From Fimbriimonas ginsengisoli Gsoil 348 (lineage in GTDB: Bacteria > Armatimonadota > Fimbriimonadia > Fimbriimonadales > Fimbriimonadaceae), in NCBI RefSeq assembly GCF_000724625.1, contig NZ_CP007139.1, positions 2,232,001 to 2,296,000 on the forward strand: a stretch of 64,000 bases of DNA. Reading direction: 5' to 3'. A model generated the notes under the pieces. The model worked only from the letters and a program-made list of their open reading frames with translations. It searched no databases and was not told where the DNA came from. The position numbers and the translations under genes are program-made. Shown piece by piece: positions 1,008 to 19,526 of this stretch. Numbering within the stretch: position 1 is the stretch's first letter; the number at the start of each line of letters is the position of its first letter.

Positions 1008-1790
1008 CTAGTACATCGCTCTCGCTAACAGGAAGTTGGCGATGTAAATGAGGACCATGCCGATGACGACGGTGTTGGTGGTGGCGCGACCTACGCCGAC
1101 GGCGCCTTCCTTGGTTCTCAGCCCCTGCTGGCAGGCGACGACGGCGACGATGAGGCCGAAACAGGGAGTTTTGATCATTCCCTTGACGAAATCTTCCGGC
1201 TTCACGAATTGCTGGACCGAATGGATAAAGGTGGCGTACGAGATCCGCTCCGTAATGGCCACCAGGAGGCCGCCCACCACGCCGGACCACATGCAGACCA
1301 TCGAGAGCACCGGCAGCATCAGGAGGCCCGCCAGAATGCGAGGGATGATCAAGTAGTTCGTGGGATGGACGCTCAGCATCTTGAGGGCGTCGATCTGCTC
1401 GGTTACCGCCATGCTGCCGATCTGGGCGGCCATCGCGGAGCCGCAACGCGCCGCCACCATGATTCCCGCAATCACCGGTCCGACCTCGCGGGTGACGGTC
1501 AGTCCTACCGTGGCTCCCACGAAATTCGTGGCGCCATACTGACCCAGGAACTGGGAAAGGTAGAGCGATAGAACCGCTCCGGAAAAGAACCCGGTCAAGG
1601 TGACGATCGGGACTGAGGCGACCCCAATGAACGCCATTTGGTTCATCGTCTCGCGAATCTCGAATGGGCGGCGGGGGGCTCGTCGAATCGCGTCGGCGAT
1701 GATCATGCCGCACTCCCCAACGAACGTCAGGAAGGAGACGATCGACTGGATCGGGCTAAGGGCGTAGGGGCGGTCGACGTTCGCGGCCAT
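1008..1790 (-). CDS. mlaE: MlaE-type lipid ABC transporter permease
   Basis: 260-aa integral inner-membrane permease of the Mla/Mce/TGD family, which moves phospholipids between the inner and outer membrane of diderm cells. The MlaE signature is clear: FFSGAVLSLYLSQFLGQYGA, TREVGPVIAGIMVAARCGSAMAAQIGSM, then ALKMLSVHPTNYLIIPRILA. Five to six hydrophobic helices follow the family pattern, ending in a hydrophobic C-terminal helix. The ATPase (MlaF) and MCE-domain protein (MlaD) are not in the window. It sits 24 nt downstream of the M48 peptidase gene and upstream of hicA, all on the minus strand. Confidence 0.9.
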   Translation of the reverse strand: MAANVDRPYALSPIQSIVSFLTFVGECGMIIADAIRRAPRRPFEIRETMNQMAFIGVASVPIVTLTGFFSGAVLSLYLSQFLGQYGATNFVGATVGLTVTREVGPVIAGIMVAARCGSAMAAQIGSMAVTEQIDALKMLSVHPTNYLIIPRILAGLLMLPVLSMVCMWSGVVGGLLVAITERISYATFIHSVQQFVKPEDFVKGMIKTPCFGLIVAVVACQQGLRTKEGAVGVGRATTNTVVIGMVLIYIANFLLARAMY

Positions 1791-1814
1791 TGGCGGAGGT
1801 CTCAGGCTAAGACC

Positions 1815-3029
1815 TTACCGTACTTCCCACACCCGGTAGCCGATCTTGAAGAGGGCGCCTCGGATTCGGGTCAGCGTCGCCTTCTGCAACTCGTCCATCG
1901 AGGTCTTGGCGGCGGCCGCATCGTCTTGCGTTAGCGCCAGAAGCTCCTGCCTCCGGCCCAAGATATTTCCATCGTCGCCGGATCGCACCTCGTACATCTC
2001 GGGAACCGAGTCGAAGAAATTGTTCAGTCGCCGCACGGCCGCGTCGGCCCGGGTGAGAGCATCGTTACCGGCAAACGAAACAAGCGGTTTGCCGCCGAAC
2101 GAAACCGCCACGGTACCGTCGTCGGCGGGCTTGGCTTCGGCCCGGAAGCTGCTGGCGACCCGGCTTCGCCGAATCGGAACGTTCGCCGCCTTCATGTATC
2201 TGAGCAGCGATTCGGCCCGTTCGCGCCCAGGAGGGTGAGTTTGGAAGATTCCCAGGTGCGCGTAACGAGGGTCGCCGACCTCCTTCATGGCGAGACGTTC
2301 CATGAAAGTGAGAATTCCCGTCGGATCGTACTTGCTCTTGAGCATGTACTGGAAGCCGCCGTAGTCGGCCGCTTCCTCCGCCCTCACGCTCCAGCCGCTC
2401 GTATAAGCCTGCGAGAGCAAGCTGGCGCCGGAGAGAACGCCGGGAAGCGCCTCCGTTCCTTTCGCGAGCACCATCGCGATGATCAGCGGGATCTCGATCT
2501 TTTGCATCTTCGCCTGCTCGGATTGGAGCGTGGCGACATGCCGGAAGGCTGCGTGGGCGATTTCGTGGGAGAGAACGCCCGCAAGCTCGTCGTCGCTTTC
2601 GGCGAAGTCGATCAGGCCGCGGTAGACGTAGATGAAGCCGCCGGGGAGGGAGAAGGCGTTAACTTCCTCCGGATGCTCCTTGTCTTCGACGATCTTGAAC
2701 ACGTAGTCGAACGTGTTCATGCGCTTGTCGCCCCACAGAGCATCGGCGTGGGTGATATTCGCAACGTCGGCAAGCTCGCGCCCGATCTTTTCGATCCGAG
2801 CGTTCAGATCCTTGTCCGGAACGACTTTCAGATCTTTTTCGACTTCGATGACGTACTTCGCGCCGACCTCGCGATCCCGCTTGATGTCGTCGCGATGTTT
2901 CTGCTCCTGCTTGTCGATCGGCTGCTGAGTCTCGACTTCTCGCCAGGCATTTGCCACGAGCCGCTCGACCGGGCTGGCCGGGATTGGCCGGGGCCGAATC
3001 AGCGTCATCGCAAGAAGTGCGGGGATCAT
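1815..3029 (-). CDS. M48-family zinc metallopeptidase
   Basis: 404-aa peptidase related to BepA/YfgC and Oma1-type M48 enzymes, which degrade misassembled envelope proteins. The zinc motif HEIAH is at residues 155-159, with the downstream glutamate ligand in RAEEAAD (about 219-220). The segment NAFSLPGGFIYVYRGLI before the motif is the usual M48 lead-in. A hydrophobic stretch at about 180-200 could be membrane associated. The N-terminus is only weakly signal-like. The roughly 120 C-terminal residues (SFRAEAKPADDGT onward) form a domain I do not recognise. Its place ahead of mlaE fits a role in envelope upkeep. Confidence 0.85.
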   Translation of the reverse strand: MIPALLAMTLIRPRPIPASPVERLVANAWREVETQQPIDKQEQKHRDDIKRDREVGAKYVIEVEKDLKVVPDKDLNARIEKIGRELADVANITHADALWGDKRMNTFDYVFKIVEDKEHPEEVNAFSLPGGFIYVYRGLIDFAESDDELAGVLSHEIAHAAFRHVATLQSEQAKMQKIEIPLIIAMVLAKGTEALPGVLSGASLLSQAYTSGWSVRAEEAADYGGFQYMLKSKYDPTGILTFMERLAMKEVGDPRYAHLGIFQTHPPGRERAESLLRYMKAANVPIRRSRVASSFRAEAKPADDGTVAVSFGGKPLVSFAGNDALTRADAAVRRLNNFFDSVPEMYEVRSGDDGNILGRRQELLALTQDDAAAAKTSMDELQKATLTRIRGALFKIGYRVWEVR

Positions 3030-3091
3030 GGTTACTCCGACGTTTGAGACAGGTATCGGTATTCAGAATACCGTCTGGAAGTTAGACGTCC

Positions 3092-4771
3092 TCACTTTGC
3101 CGAATCGTCCCAAACGATCATCGGCTTTAAGATTTCGCCCCTCTTCATCCTCCCATACGCCCTTGGCAGCTCGTCCATTCCGATGAACTCGCTGACGACC
3201 TGCTCGGCTTTGAGTTTTCCATCGCGTATCGCCTCGGCCGCCTCCCGAGTGTCCTCCGGCCCGCACGAGTACGAGTGTCTGATCGTAATGTCCCGGAAAT
3301 AAGCCTCCTGCGGAACCGCCAATGCCTCCCCTGGTCCAAGCGGAGCGAACATGACGATCGTCGCCCCCGGATTGGCGATTCGCATCGCAAAGTCGAACGC
3401 GGCTTGGCTGCCGGGACAGACGAAGATTACGTCCGCCGGTTCGGCGTCGTCCGGTAGTCGAGCGTCAATACCTTGCCTCGTTGCCCACTCGATCCGTCCT
3501 GGGCTAAGGTCGTATCCCACGGAGCCAGGCAAAAGCAGACAATGCATCAGCCCCATCACCCCAAGCCCAATCACCGCCGCCGTGGCACGGGCTTCCAGCC
3601 CGTGTGTATCACGACCGTCCCGGGCGTGCTCCCCCCTGCCCGCTCCCCCGCGCCAGCGGTGCACCGTCTCGCCGACGAACTGATAGTTCAGCAGCCCTGC
3701 CTTGGCGGGATTATAAAGGACGTAGTCGAGGGCGTGTTGGTAATCCTCGGCATCGCGAATTAAGTGGTCGTACGATTCCGATTGCCATACATCCCCAGTG
3801 CGTCCAAGAAGCTTGTTCACTTGCCTCGCAGTAAATGACTTCCAGGAGTGAAGTATCTCCGCCAACTCGTACCCCGGCAAAGGCTCGACGATCGCATGAA
3901 CGTGGTTCGGCATCACGCACCAGGCGTAAAGGCGGTACCGTTCGCCATCGAAGTGTTTCAGCCCCTCTTGGACCAAGCCGGCTGCTCGGTGGTCACGTAG
4001 GATGGAGGATCCGTGCCCTTCGTTAAGATAACTTTGCACTCGCTCCGCATGGAGGTGCTTTCGATTCCAGAGTTCCCGTTCGGTGAGGCGATCTGCCATG
4101 GCTGCGAGGCGTTCGCGTTCCAACCTCCACTCCTCGCGGACATGCCGTGGTACTGCGTCGGCCAACCGGAACGTGACGGAGTATGTCGCTCCCGGCCTTG
4201 TCCAGTGAGGAAGGTTGGCGCCTTGCCGAACTACCAACTCGTCCGCGGCTTGGGTGCTCGGCGCTACTTTGTCCACGCCCGGGACGGTCGTGATACCCAT
4301 TGGCTGGAAGCCAGTGCCACGGCGGATGCTCTTCACCACGCAGGCTAACGGCTCGATGAGGGCGGCGTCGACGGGTCGGAGGTCGTCGGTGCGGAGGGTG
4401 TCGGTTAGGTTTTCCGCATCCACTGCGAAGAAATCGGCCATGCCACCCGGGGCAAGCTTGGTTCGCTTCCAGTGGGGGCAATGGACGTACAGGCCCTGTC
4501 GGCAGAGCTCGCATTGCAGGCAGGGGGCGTGGTGGTGAGGAAACACCCGCGAACCGACCGGAAACCGCTCGTCTTGCGATTCAATGACCACCCCCGACAC
4601 CTCGTGCCCCAGAACGTGCGGCACCTTGCGGTCCATGTACCACGACATGAGCTCGCCGGAGCAGAGGCCGCATGCCTCCGTTCGAACGAGGAGGCCCCCT
4701 TCAGGGCAGGAGGGGATCGCCTCGTCCACGATTGCGACCTCGCCATTCCCGATGTATCTGGCAACCTTCAT
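3092..4771 (-). CDS. Zinc MDR dehydrogenase with an in-frame RAYT transposase insert
   Basis: One open frame of 559 codons encodes three parts. Residues 1 to about 151 are the catalytic domain of a zinc-type medium-chain dehydrogenase: C34/C37, GHE at 55-57, and the structural zinc cysteines C84, C87, C90 and C98. Residues about 152-398 are a REP-associated tyrosine transposase (Y1/HUH family): HxH at H290/H292 in MPNHVHAIVE, VWQSESYDHLIRD, and the Tyr helix YVLYNPAKAGL (Y350). From about 399 the dehydrogenase resumes with the Rossmann strand VIGLGVMG and continues to the stop. The host alone would be about 312 aa, slightly short for the family, as if 8-10 linker residues were lost. The ATG overlaps the upstream dehydrogenase gene by 4 nt. 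Seen: continuous frame and flanking inverted repeats. Inferred: a RAYT element landed in frame between the two domains. Whether the enzyme still works cannot be told. Confidence 0.85.
   Translation of the reverse strand: MKVARYIGNGEVAIVDEAIPSCPEGGLLVRTEACGLCSGELMSWYMDRKVPHVLGHEVSGVVIESQDERFPVGSRVFPHHHAPCLQCELCRQGLYVHCPHWKRTKLAPGGMADFFAVDAENLTDTLRTDDLRPVDAALIEPLACVVKSIRRGTGFQPMGITTVPGVDKVAPSTQAADELVVRQGANLPHWTRPGATYSVTFRLADAVPRHVREEWRLERERLAAMADRLTERELWNRKHLHAERVQSYLNEGHGSSILRDHRAAGLVQEGLKHFDGERYRLYAWCVMPNHVHAIVEPLPGYELAEILHSWKSFTARQVNKLLGRTGDVWQSESYDHLIRDAEDYQHALDYVLYNPAKAGLLNYQFVGETVHRWRGGAGRGEHARDGRDTHGLEARATAAVIGLGVMGLMHCLLLPGSVGYDLSPGRIEWATRQGIDARLPDDAEPADVIFVCPGSQAAFDFAMRIANPGATIVMFAPLGPGEALAVPQEAYFRDITIRHSYSCGPEDTREAAEAIRDGKLKAEQVVSEFIGMDELPRAYGRMKRGEILKPMIVWDDSAK
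3580..4322 (-). mobile_element. REP-RAYT element bounded by 49-bp inverted repeats
   Basis: The ends at 3580-3628 and 4274-4322 are inverted copies of one 49-bp sequence, differing at about four positions. Both have a GTGG foot, then a hairpin (CACGGGC/GCCCGTG or the partly decayed CACTGGC form) with a TTCCA loop, then GTATCACGACCGTCCCGGGC. They belong to the same family as solitary REPs at 19346, 35660 and 41804. Between them lies the HUH/Y1 transposase frame on the minus strand. The ends are translated as TGFQPMGITTVPGV and HARDGRDTHGLEARATA. RAYTs are known to be flanked by REPs that they recognise. Translation of the whole unit inside a host enzyme is the odd part. Confidence 0.85.
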
Positions 4772-5781
4772 GAACGCCTAAGGCCCGGAACTTGCGGTTT
4801 GAACACGTACTTCAACCCGGCGCCGTTCTGCAGATCCTCGAACACCTGCTTTCCTTCCTCTAAGAACCGTTCCCCCGAGATGATCCCGCTCAGGTCGAGG
4901 AGCGGGTTTAGGAGCCATTCTCGCGCTTGACGCACCGCTTTCGTTCCGAAGTGGAACGGACTCAGAATCGTGATCTGGTCGTAGTGGACCTTCTTGGTGT
5001 CGAAACTGGCCCGGGTGCCGCCGGGGCAGCCACCGAACAGCATCAGCGTCCCGCCCCGGCGGACGTAATCGATACTTTTCTCCCACACCTCGACCTGGCC
5101 GGTGCACTCGATGACGATGTCGTACGAACCCGGAATCGCGTCCACCTTGCAGGTCTGAGCCCCTAGCTTCTTCCCTTCGGCCAGTCGGGCGTCGTTTCGC
5201 CCCGCCAAAGTGATTTCGCGAGCGCCGGACAACCGCAAGGCGCCCACGAACATAAGCCCGATCGCGCCGGGGCCGATCACAAGCACCCGGCTATCTTCGC
5301 GTACTTTTAATAGCTCGACACCTTGGGCGACGCAAGAGAGAGGCTCGAGAAGGCACGCCTTCTCGAAGCTGATCGAATCCGGCTTTGGAAAAAGGTTGAG
5401 CTGGGCAATCCGCGCCGGAACCAGCAAATACTCGGCGTACGAGCCGAGCACCTTGGTGCTCATGATGCTCTCGCATAGGTTTTCCTGGTCGCGTTGGCAC
5501 CAATAGCATTCCTGGCATGGCGCCGAGTGGACTCCCATTACCGGATCGCCGACGGCGAACGAAGCCCCCTCGCCGACCGCCGCGACGATTCCGCTGTATT
5601 CGTGGCCAAGCACGCCCGGCATCGGAATCTGGGGATGCCCCCGTAGAAATGCCTTCAGGTCGGTTCCGCAGGTTGTGGCGGCTTCGACTTTCACCAGCAC
5701 TTCGCCGGGACCCGGATGTGGAATCTCGATTTGTTGGAGCGACATCCGCCCCGGCTCTTCCAGGACGAGGGCTCGCATGGT
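4768..5781 (-). CDS. Zinc-dependent MDR alcohol/polyol dehydrogenase
   Basis: About 337-aa member of the medium-chain dehydrogenase family, like sorbitol or threonine dehydrogenases; it would oxidise a polyol or similar alcohol with NAD(P). Visible: the catalytic zinc pocket (TTCGTD, GHEYSG), the structural zinc loop CQECYWCQRDQENLC, the Rossmann motif VIGPGAIGL, and the VIECTG strand. The ATG at 5781 gives the usual N-terminus MRALVLEEPG. The frame is open to 5865, but that extra stretch is basic and not family-like. It overlaps the next dehydrogenase gene by 4 nt, so the two are probably co-expressed. The SRPBCC gene starts divergently at 5915. The substrate cannot be inferred. Confidence 0.86.
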   Translation of the reverse strand, partial: TMRALVLEEPGRMSLQQIEIPHPGPGEVLVKVEAATTCGTDLKAFLRGHPQIPMPGVLGHEYSGIVAAVGEGASFAVGDPVMGVHSAPCQECYWCQRDQENLCESIMSTKVLGSYAEYLLVPARIAQLNLFPKPDSISFEKACLLEPLSCVAQGVELLKVREDSRVLVIGPGAIGLMFVGALRLSGAREITLAGRNDARLAEGKKLGAQTCKVDAIPGSYDIVIECTGQVEVWEKSIDYVRRGGTLMLFGGCPGGTRASFDTKKVHYDQITILSPFHFGTKAVRQAREWLLNPLLDLSGIISGERFLEEGKQVFEDLQNGAGLKYVFKPQVPGLRRS

Positions 5782-5914
5782 GCCGGTCGGCGGCGTCGAA
5801 AGGGCTTCCTCTAGTTTCTCCAAGTTCAACGGTTGTCTACGCGCCGCACGCCGACGTTGGCGCACCGGTAGACTGCTCCCTAGCTTAAAGCGCTACGATT
5901 TTGACCGAACCGAT

Positions 5915-18188: not shown

Positions 18189-19346
18189 ATGACACACGTG
18201 CAGGAGCTATTTGAGAAGCCGAAAGGTGTGGAGACGCGGTGGTTTAGTCCGGAGAACCCGGAGGGGAAGCGAGGGAGCGGCGGCAGGGAGAATGCCGGGT
18301 CAAAGGGGCGGCCGTATGTTTCGGTGGCGGCGGGGGAGACGGCGACCCTGTTGGAATTCGAAGGGAGCGGGGTCGTCCGCCGGATGTGGGTAACGATCGG
18401 CGATCGAAGCCCGGAGATGCTCCGATCCCTTCGGATTGAAATGTTCTGGGATGGGGCGGCGTCTCCGGCGGTTTCCGTCCCCTTCGGCGACTTCTTTGGG
18501 ATCGGGCTCGGCCGGCGCACGCCGTTCGAAAACGCCCTCTTTTCCGATCCGGAGGGGCGCAGCTTCAACTGCTTCATCCCGATGCCTTTCCGGCAATCCG
18601 CCCGCGTCGCGATCACTAACGACAGCGCCCAGAACCTGCGGCACCTGTTTTACGACATCGACGTCACGGTAAACGAATCTCTCGCCCCCGAGACCATCTA
18701 TTTTCACGCTTGTTGGCGCCGCGAATCGCCGAACGAACTGGGCAAGGAGTTCGCGATCCTTCCCCGAGTTGAGGGGAGTGGCCGATTCTTGGGTTGCAAC
18801 CTCGGCATTATCACGGACCCGCGGTACGACGGGACCTGGTGGGGCGAGGGCGAGGTCAAGATACGGACCGGCGACGACCAAGACCCCACTCTATGCGGGA
18901 CCGGCACCGAGGATTACGTCGGCACCGGCTGGGGCCAAGGGTCGTACGCGCACCGTACGCAAGGATGCCTTATCGCCGACAAAGAGCGCCGCCACTGGGC
19001 GTTCTACCGCTACCACGTCGACGACCCGGTCTATTTCGACGGCGGCTGCACCGTCTCGATCCAGACGATTGGCGGCATCGGCAAGCCGAAGGCGTTGGAG
19101 CTGCTGGCGAATGGCGTTCCTATGATTCCGGTCACGCTCGACCCGGGCGATCCGCACCCGATGATCCACCTCATGGGCCGCGAAACGCCGGTAGACCTGG
19201 CAACCGAAGGGACGGAGACGGATTGGTGCAACTTCTGGCGTCAAGACGACTGGTCGGCGGTGGCGTATTTCTATCTGGACCGCCCCGAGAACAGCCTCCC
19301 GCCTCTTGCTCCAGCCGCAGAGCGAGTCAGAGATCTAAACCCCTAG
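18189..19346 (+). CDS. DUF2961 / GH172-family glycoside hydrolase
   Basis: 385-aa protein of the DUF2961 family, now GH172 (difructose-anhydride synthases and furanosidases). The central segment shows the family pattern: VPFGDFFGIGLG, RSFNCFIPMPFRQSARVAITND, then EGEVKIRTGDDQDPTLCGTGTEDYVGTGWGQG with the conserved GTGTEDY and its Glu, and YRYHVDDPVYFDGG. No signal peptide, so likely cytoplasmic or exported by another route. The target sugar is not certain; furanosides (fructose or arabinose) are known for the family. The TAG stop runs directly into a GTGG-footed REP. Confidence 0.88.
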   Translation: MTHVQELFEKPKGVETRWFSPENPEGKRGSGGRENAGSKGRPYVSVAAGETATLLEFEGSGVVRRMWVTIGDRSPEMLRSLRIEMFWDGAASPAVSVPFGDFFGIGLGRRTPFENALFSDPEGRSFNCFIPMPFRQSARVAITNDSAQNLRHLFYDIDVTVNESLAPETIYFHACWRRESPNELGKEFAILPRVEGSGRFLGCNLGIITDPRYDGTWWGEGEVKIRTGDDQDPTLCGTGTEDYVGTGWGQGSYAHRTQGCLIADKERRHWAFYRYHVDDPVYFDGGCTVSIQTIGGIGKPKALELLANGVPMIPVTLDPGDPHPMIHLMGRETPVDLATEGTETDWCNFWRQDDWSAVAYFYLDRPENSLPPLAPAAERVRDLNP

Positions 19347-19502
19347 TGGCACTGGCTTCTAGCCAGTGGGTCCCAAGGGCATCCTGCCCTTGGCCCTTTT
19401 CCCATAGCAAGGAGGGCCGTCGGGTTCATCGGCTGGAAGCCGATGCTACGTTTACACGACCAGGATGGTCGTGATACACACGGGCTGGAAGCGCCGTGCC
19501 AC
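19346..19502. repeat. Composite REP cluster after GH172 gene
   Basis: Begins GTGG at 19346, sharing its G with the TAG stop of the gene upstream. It contains CACTGGC/GCCAGTG with loop TTCTA, AAGGGCA/TGCCCTT, CATCGGC/GCCGATG with loop TGGAA, CACGACCA/TGGTCGTG and a final inverted copy ending GTGCCAC. Same family as the RAYT element ends. Confidence 0.8.
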
Positions 19503-19526
19503 GGGGGCTTGATACCGTCCTGTAAC

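Follow-up and report, generated by a model that had tools for sequence, protein, structure and literature searches.

A RAYT (TnpAREP) transposase is encoded in frame inside a zinc-type MDR dehydrogenase in the window, by which we mean the whole stretch of 64,000 nucleotides of the Fimbriimonas ginsengisoli Gsoil 348 genome analysed here. We consider the best explanation, with a probability of roughly 0.78, to be that this gene is one example of translated, unspliced REP-RAYT-REP cassettes that persist in host genes much as inteins do. The parts of such an arrangement are known, but the persistence of a RAYT as a translated and unspliced domain of host proteins appears, on this evidence, to be a new lifestyle.

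The chimeric gene is a single open frame of 559 codons that begins with ATG and contains no internal stop, in a genome that is complete in one contig of 5.23 Mb. Pfam places ADH_N (residues 24-123, 65.3 bits), Y1_Tnp and ADH_zinc_N (residues 444-515) along it in this order, and the middle part matches the NCBIfam model REP_Tyr_transpos (NF047646) with 83.7 bits against a cut-off of 80. The initial annotation, which had described one frame made of an MDR N-terminal half, a RAYT and a Rossmann half, is borne out by these matches, and the HVH motif and the tyrosine that it had placed at residues 290-292 and 350 lie exactly there. Tyr350 is the Y of the Y-x3-NP signature, in YVLYNP, and its position is invariant in our RAYT clade alignment A1 except in one truncated row. 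The flanking REP copies, described there as 49 bp long (3580-3628 and 4274-4322), are indeed inverted and translated, but they extend further, each arm measuring 52 nt (3577-3628 and 4274-4325) with 92% complementarity. The start codon of the chimera overlaps the stop of an upstream dehydrogenase gene in an ATGA, which indicates that the chimeric gene is part of an operon; a second, weaker dehydrogenase match adjoins the dehydrogenase gene in relatives too. The features of the locus are as follows.

3092..4771, minus strand: chimeric gene, an MDR dehydrogenase with an in-frame REP-RAYT-REP cassette, 559 codons (open frame; Pfam and NCBIfam matches)
4319..4771, minus strand: MDR N-terminal half (GroES-like, zinc), residues 1-151, with Cys 84, 87, 90 and 98 of the structural zinc and GHE at 55 intact (ADH_N; alignment to 19 relatives; motif positions)
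4274..4325, minus strand: left inverted REP arm, translated as RRGTGFQPMGITTVPGV (repeat search; REP family of the same genome)
4205..4303, minus strand: disordered linker 1, residues 157-189, mostly REP-derived (AlphaFold2 pLDDT < 50)
3674..4231, minus strand: core of the RAYT (TnpAREP) domain, residues 181-366 (NF047646 above cut-off; A1 profile against 4er8, E 7e-8)
3896..3904, minus strand: HUH motif HVH, residues 290-292 (motif position)
3722..3724, minus strand: catalytic-type Tyr350 in YVLYNP (motif position; conservation in A1)
3593..3643, minus strand: disordered linker 2, residues 377-393, REP-derived (AlphaFold2 pLDDT < 50)
3577..3628, minus strand: right inverted REP arm, translated as HARDGRDTHGLEARATAA (repeat search)
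3095..3580, minus strand: MDR Rossmann (cofactor) half, residues 398-559, with GLGVMG at 402 (ADH_zinc_N; alignment)
4768..5865, minus strand: upstream paralogous MDR dehydrogenase, its stop overlapping the start of the chimera (open frame; Pfam)

The GroES-like zinc domain, the Rossmann domain, the zinc-binding Cys/His residues and the GxGxxG motif that define an MDR enzyme are all present in the chimera. Likewise, its inserted part carries the HUH motif, the Y-x3-N signature, the family profile and the inverted repeated REP flanks of a RAYT, and it departs from that family in that it does not stand alone as a gene and lacks a start and stop of its own. A scan for promoters of the sigma-70 type found no match inside the chimeric gene, and the predicted stability of the REP hairpins in its mRNA did not exceed that of shuffled sequences.

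When the whole chimera was used as query, the dehydrogenase matches in 60 relatives ended at about residue 151 and restarted at 397-398, the RAYT being absent in between. Alignment with 19 uninterrupted homologues revealed an interdomain hinge of about four residues at the insertion site (VVKSIR|RGTGFQPM...EARAT|AAVIGLGVMG), just before the first Rossmann strand, in agreement with the earlier proposal that the join falls exactly at the linker between the two enzyme domains. As one dehydrogenase gene spans the site in these relatives, the insert interrupts one enzyme and does not join two pieces; a RAYT as a separate gene next to two unrelated dehydrogenase pieces, which the initial annotation had regarded as fatal to its interpretation, is not what the relatives display. 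With the insert left out, the end branch of the window dehydrogenase (0.21) was the shortest, its sisters having 0.27 and 0.36, and the host halves have kept the structural-zinc cysteines, GHE and GxGxxG. The short branch and the intact motifs argue against a dead gene, while being compatible with a very young insertion, and this dehydrogenase gene was found to carry the insert in one genome only.

A structural model was computed with AlphaFold2 from an alignment of the chimera, 10 dehydrogenases and 38 RAYT domains. Its mean pLDDT was 83.8, the dehydrogenase and RAYT parts scoring mostly between 85 and 97 and residues 157-189 and 377-393, which the REPs encode, below 50. In Foldseek searches whole MDR enzymes aligned to the model across the insert, with TM(target) of about 0.7-0.8, and the A1 profile matched the solved TnpAREP structure PDB 4er8 (E 7e-8). 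The model predicts a whole dehydrogenase bearing a separate RAYT domain on two flexible, REP-encoded tethers.

The strongest support for a functional chimera came from other genomes. The RAYT clade alignment A1 was searched in family, phylum and species-wide collections and the frame around each match was read, a survey along the lines suggested in the initial annotation, which returned many RAYTs in frame within host enzymes of Armatimonadota, Planctomycetota, Verrucomicrobiota and others. Against curated host models the chimeras scored above the cut-off as ValRS (1036 bits, cut-off 704), LeuRS (851 and 846, cut-off 548), MetH (1135, cut-off 1011), AlaRS (774, cut-off 457), IspG (470, cut-off 280), XseA (468, cut-off 180), CarB (774, cut-off 599) and TsaC (172, cut-off 123), while a FabZ chimera stayed under its length-dependent cut-off. 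Further hosts were GH38, type ISP, DUF1156, Eco57I, N6_N4 methylase and VitK2_biosynth proteins, as well as PrmC, where the RAYT is located at the C-terminus. Among the best 80 species-wide relatives, 46 were flanked on either side by 90 or more in-frame residues, a proportion that is no estimate of prevalence since A1 was seeded with chimeras. Most RAYTs of this family with lower similarity lie in frames of about 160-300 aa, so G+C content by itself does not explain the long frames. At the level of sequence, the window case is thereby shown to be one of a widespread and recurrent class, which the initial annotation had not seen.

Several of these hosts appear to be the only copy of the enzyme in their genome. 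The chimera was the only copy found of IspG in seven of seven genomes, of LeuRS in two of two, and of the first half of CarB in G020, G023, G025 and G062; that of AlaRS was the only copy in three of three genomes, once as two overlapping frames. Genomes carrying a ValRS chimera showed no second ValRS above the cut-off, their remaining matches of 200-310 bits fitting IleRS; in this set the chimeric gene of L133 itself, as well as L140/L159, is either broken or truncated by a contig end. Sole-copy status is strong only in aggregate, these genomes having been reached through MAG loci and being of uncertain completeness. As the pattern recurs across hosts, a reading in which the fused sole-copy enzymes do not work is nevertheless very hard to sustain. 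Extending this step from the sole-copy chimeras to the window gene, we strongly infer that the window dehydrogenase would be a working enzyme as well. Hence the domain-insertion chimera postulated in the initial annotation gains support from the uninterrupted relatives, the unaccelerated host branch and the two-module model, and above all from the essential sole-copy enzymes of other genomes.

The inserted RAYT seems to be maintained as well. Nearly all chimeras retain HUH and Y-x3-NP, and for the pairs that could be scored the RAYT domain had a dN/dS of about 0.04-0.1, dS being saturated in most pairs; examples are the ValRS pair L137/L140 (dN 0.077, dS 0.723) and the MetH pair L179/L201 (dN 0.072, dS 1.746). 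A strong Shine-Dalgarno start near the RAYT was present in none of 61 chimeras versus 6 of 46 free RAYTs, and several chimeras have no ATG, GTG or TTG within 30 codons of it. Purifying selection together with the loss of start signals indicates that selection seems to act on the RAYT as made within the host protein. For the window RAYT itself, the catalytic residues and the purifying selection in relatives only suggest a working transposase. In the CarB chimera of G020 (L077, frame 1469-3949) the tyrosine has been lost (SIESNP) and Pfam no longer detects Y1_Tnp, while the host frame and all CarB domains are kept; since this frame survives without the tyrosine, transposase function is not always required, and a decayed RAYT of this kind is the appearance that would be expected at the end of the process.

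As regards history, a tree of 120 RAYTs, built with a quick method without bootstraps, grouped the seven IspG inserts in one clade (SH-aLRT 93), 10 of the 11 MetH inserts in another (SH-aLRT 97) and the nine ValRS inserts nearly in one group, with the other hosts scattered and over a dozen hosts overall. These host-wise clades among scattered hosts point to several captures, each followed by long vertical retention. Near-identical RAYT copies in different hosts were absent from this tree, and a recent movement of the window RAYT between different genes was accordingly rejected. Transfer of an insert at the same site is shown once, as judged from the alignment of two MetH genes from different genera: L178 (a Prosthecobacter MAG) and L181 (a Luteolibacter MAG) share an exact tract of 733 bp (L178:3915-4647) that spans the RAYT insert and includes a few tens of host bases on each side, whereas over the rest of the alignment identity drops to 85.5% and no other exact run exceeds 75 bp. 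The insert may have entered an empty or diverged allele by recombination, and other shorter identical patches in the MetH gene suggest that ordinary recombination could suffice without homing.

These data bear differently on the alternatives. If a chance in-phase insertion had recently disrupted the window gene, leaving a dead or dying dehydrogenase whose frame is not yet broken, the restriction of the insert in this gene to one genome would be expected; the dehydrogenase is moreover not known as essential, and REPs are open in most frames anyway. This explanation is nonetheless very unlikely in our judgement, since it accounts neither for an insert placed exactly at the hinge nor for the retention of all catalytic and structural motifs on an unaccelerated host branch, and essential sole-copy enzymes have retained this arrangement across genera. 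An assembly or sequencing artefact, for which one might invoke the 454 pyrosequencing of the genome at 22x (PMC4072686) and the many MAGs among the relatives, can practically be dismissed, because 454 errors break frames instead of creating them and the chimeras recur independently in isolates (Rubritalea marina, L205, and strain E54, L185) as well as in many MAG projects.

The RAYT domain could also have been recruited for the host protein, in regulation or nucleic-acid binding, instead of being an active REP mobiliser. The purifying selection on the RAYT within orthologous ValRS and MetH chimeras and the vertical retention within IspG and MetH would suit such a domestication, and RAYTs have been viewed as domesticated transposases (PMC8266576); however, the hosts are unrelated and share no common pathway, the conserved residues are those of the nuclease and go beyond the fold alone, the REP flanks are kept, and sister genera do without the insert and without apparent harm, so that we regard it as somewhat improbable. 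Less probable still is a RAYT released as a separate product, by internal initiation or by proteolysis at the REP linkers, leaving the host as two associated halves or as a trimmed protein. The REP linkers, predicted to be disordered, may be prone to proteases, and some chimeras contain start-like codons upstream of the RAYT, but no start with a Shine-Dalgarno sequence is conserved there, several chimeras have no usable codon within 30 codons, and stops are not tolerated, though separate halves would allow them. Internal initiation was rejected as the general source of the RAYT, no start with Shine-Dalgarno sequence being kept in the chimeras.

According to the reading that we prefer, a REP-RAYT-REP cassette (REPtron) would have settled, in phase and free of stops, in the hinge codons of a zinc-type MDR dehydrogenase gene. 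With REPs that are stop-free in the frame used and a RAYT without its own stop, the ribosome would read through, so that a fusion protein would be made in which the dehydrogenase and RAYT parts may both be active, the RAYT being expressed from the host operon and presumably acting on the REPs of the genome. A sole-copy host gene would survive only a precise in-frame loss, so that the cassette would be hard to shed, much like an intein. The insert may also pass from one genus to another at an unchanged site, taking short host flanks along, as is shown in sequence for the one MetH case. A broader generalization, in which mobile-element enzymes form an intein-like class without splicing, living as unspliced domains of essential sole-copy proteins with stop-free palindromes as flexible linkers, host-only expression and homing-like movement from allele to allele across lineages, is put forward tentatively, its chances being a little short of even.

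The REPs themselves make such tolerance plausible. The family to which those of the chimera belong has about 67 matches in the 5.23-Mb genome, which makes it a genuine repeat family and excludes a chance arrangement. The REPs of this genome are almost always open in two frames per strand, and in the third frame about half the time. One of them lies in frame, without a RAYT, between two aldehyde dehydrogenase domains (L025:770-3043, minus strand; G000:C1 near 2147077). The entry of stop-poor palindromes into hinges and loops would be a simple route to tolerance of a whole cassette. Further copies of the same REP family occur in the window at 19346-19507 (G000:C1:2251346-2251371, 2251427-2251450 and 2251445-2251507). 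In the CarB of G059 (L066), the RAYT occupies another CarB site and is accompanied by several tandem in-frame REP-like peptides (SGATPFVASQADAADS), the linker being made of repeats.

Compared with known systems, the chimera resembles REPtrons and other RAYTs (NF047646; PDB 4er8; PMC6006769, PMC8266576) in its HUH and Y-x3-N motifs, its inverted REP flanks, the many REPs of the genome and the single copy of this RAYT, but those are normally free-standing with their own start and stop, whereas here the transposase has no stop of its own, has lost its start signals and forms an internal enzyme domain. Intragenic REPs and Rickettsia palindromic elements (PMC3733652) are likewise translated within host genes and tolerated in linkers, and they occur in repair genes and tRNA synthetases; the REP arms fit this type of short translated palindrome, yet such elements encode about 20-82 residues and no enzyme, while the insert described here includes a complete transposase. 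Di Nocera et al. (2013; PMC3733652) reported intragenic REPs encoding 20-82 residues, among others in tRNA synthetases and repair genes, with REPtrons as separate genes, and Quentin et al. (2018; PMC6006769) set aside RAYT proteins of unexpected length, taking them for fusions or errors of annotation. Inteins with homing endonucleases also place a mobile-element enzyme in frame in sole-copy housekeeping proteins and combine vertical retention with horizontal transfer at the same site. Such persistence in essential sole-copy genes, with horizontal transfer, was found for the relatives and not for the window gene. Unlike inteins, however, the inserts of the chimeras lie in tolerant loops and hinges rather than active sites and appear to stay in the protein. 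Identity as an intein was rejected, since no intein (Hint) or homing-endonuclease domain was among the family matches of the window and its relatives and the junctions, R|GTG and RAT|A, carry no splicing residues. IStrons, which combine a group I intron with an IS200/IS605 transposase (PMC4227781), also render a Y1 transposase harmless to the gene it has entered, but they are removed from the host RNA by self-splicing, whereas the RAYT insert is translated. An ordinary IS200/IS605 insertion sequence was discarded as well, the RAYT matches in the same genome all being different proteins and no tnpB adjoining the insert. Searches of freely accessible journal papers turned up no account of RAYTs residing in host proteins.

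RAYTs have been puzzling for a long time, being transposases that occur in single copy and are inherited vertically, with no evident advantage to the host. Those built into essential enzymes would offer a direct explanation of how some of them persist, their expression being tied to that of the host protein. An enzyme domain of about 190 residues and its linkers have been inserted by nature into hosts such as aminoacyl-tRNA synthetases, IspG and MetH; this provides dozens of natural, testable insertion sites usable for protein engineering, and it serves as a warning to annotation pipelines, which treat or discard such chimeras as errors. RAYT function also becomes testable through mutation of the HUH or tyrosine residues within a chimera.

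Among the in-frame hosts, about a fifth resemble DNA methylases or their kin (type ISP, Eco57I, DUF1156, N6_N4), namely L114, L130, L131, L141, L142, L166, L169, L184, L194 and L118-L120, of which seven were checked with Pfam and the remainder grouped by flank similarity; this could possibly reflect a preference for restriction-modification genes. One candidate host fusion, the 393-aa frame of L091, was rejected by eye, as it looks like a chance upstream extension. The large subunit of carbamoyl-phosphate synthase is encoded by two separate genes in Fimbriimonadaceae (G000, G018, G020, G023 and G025), with the RAYT in the first of them, and in another Fimbriimonadales genome a RAYT is fused behind a TetR-type regulator (L160:3242-4723).
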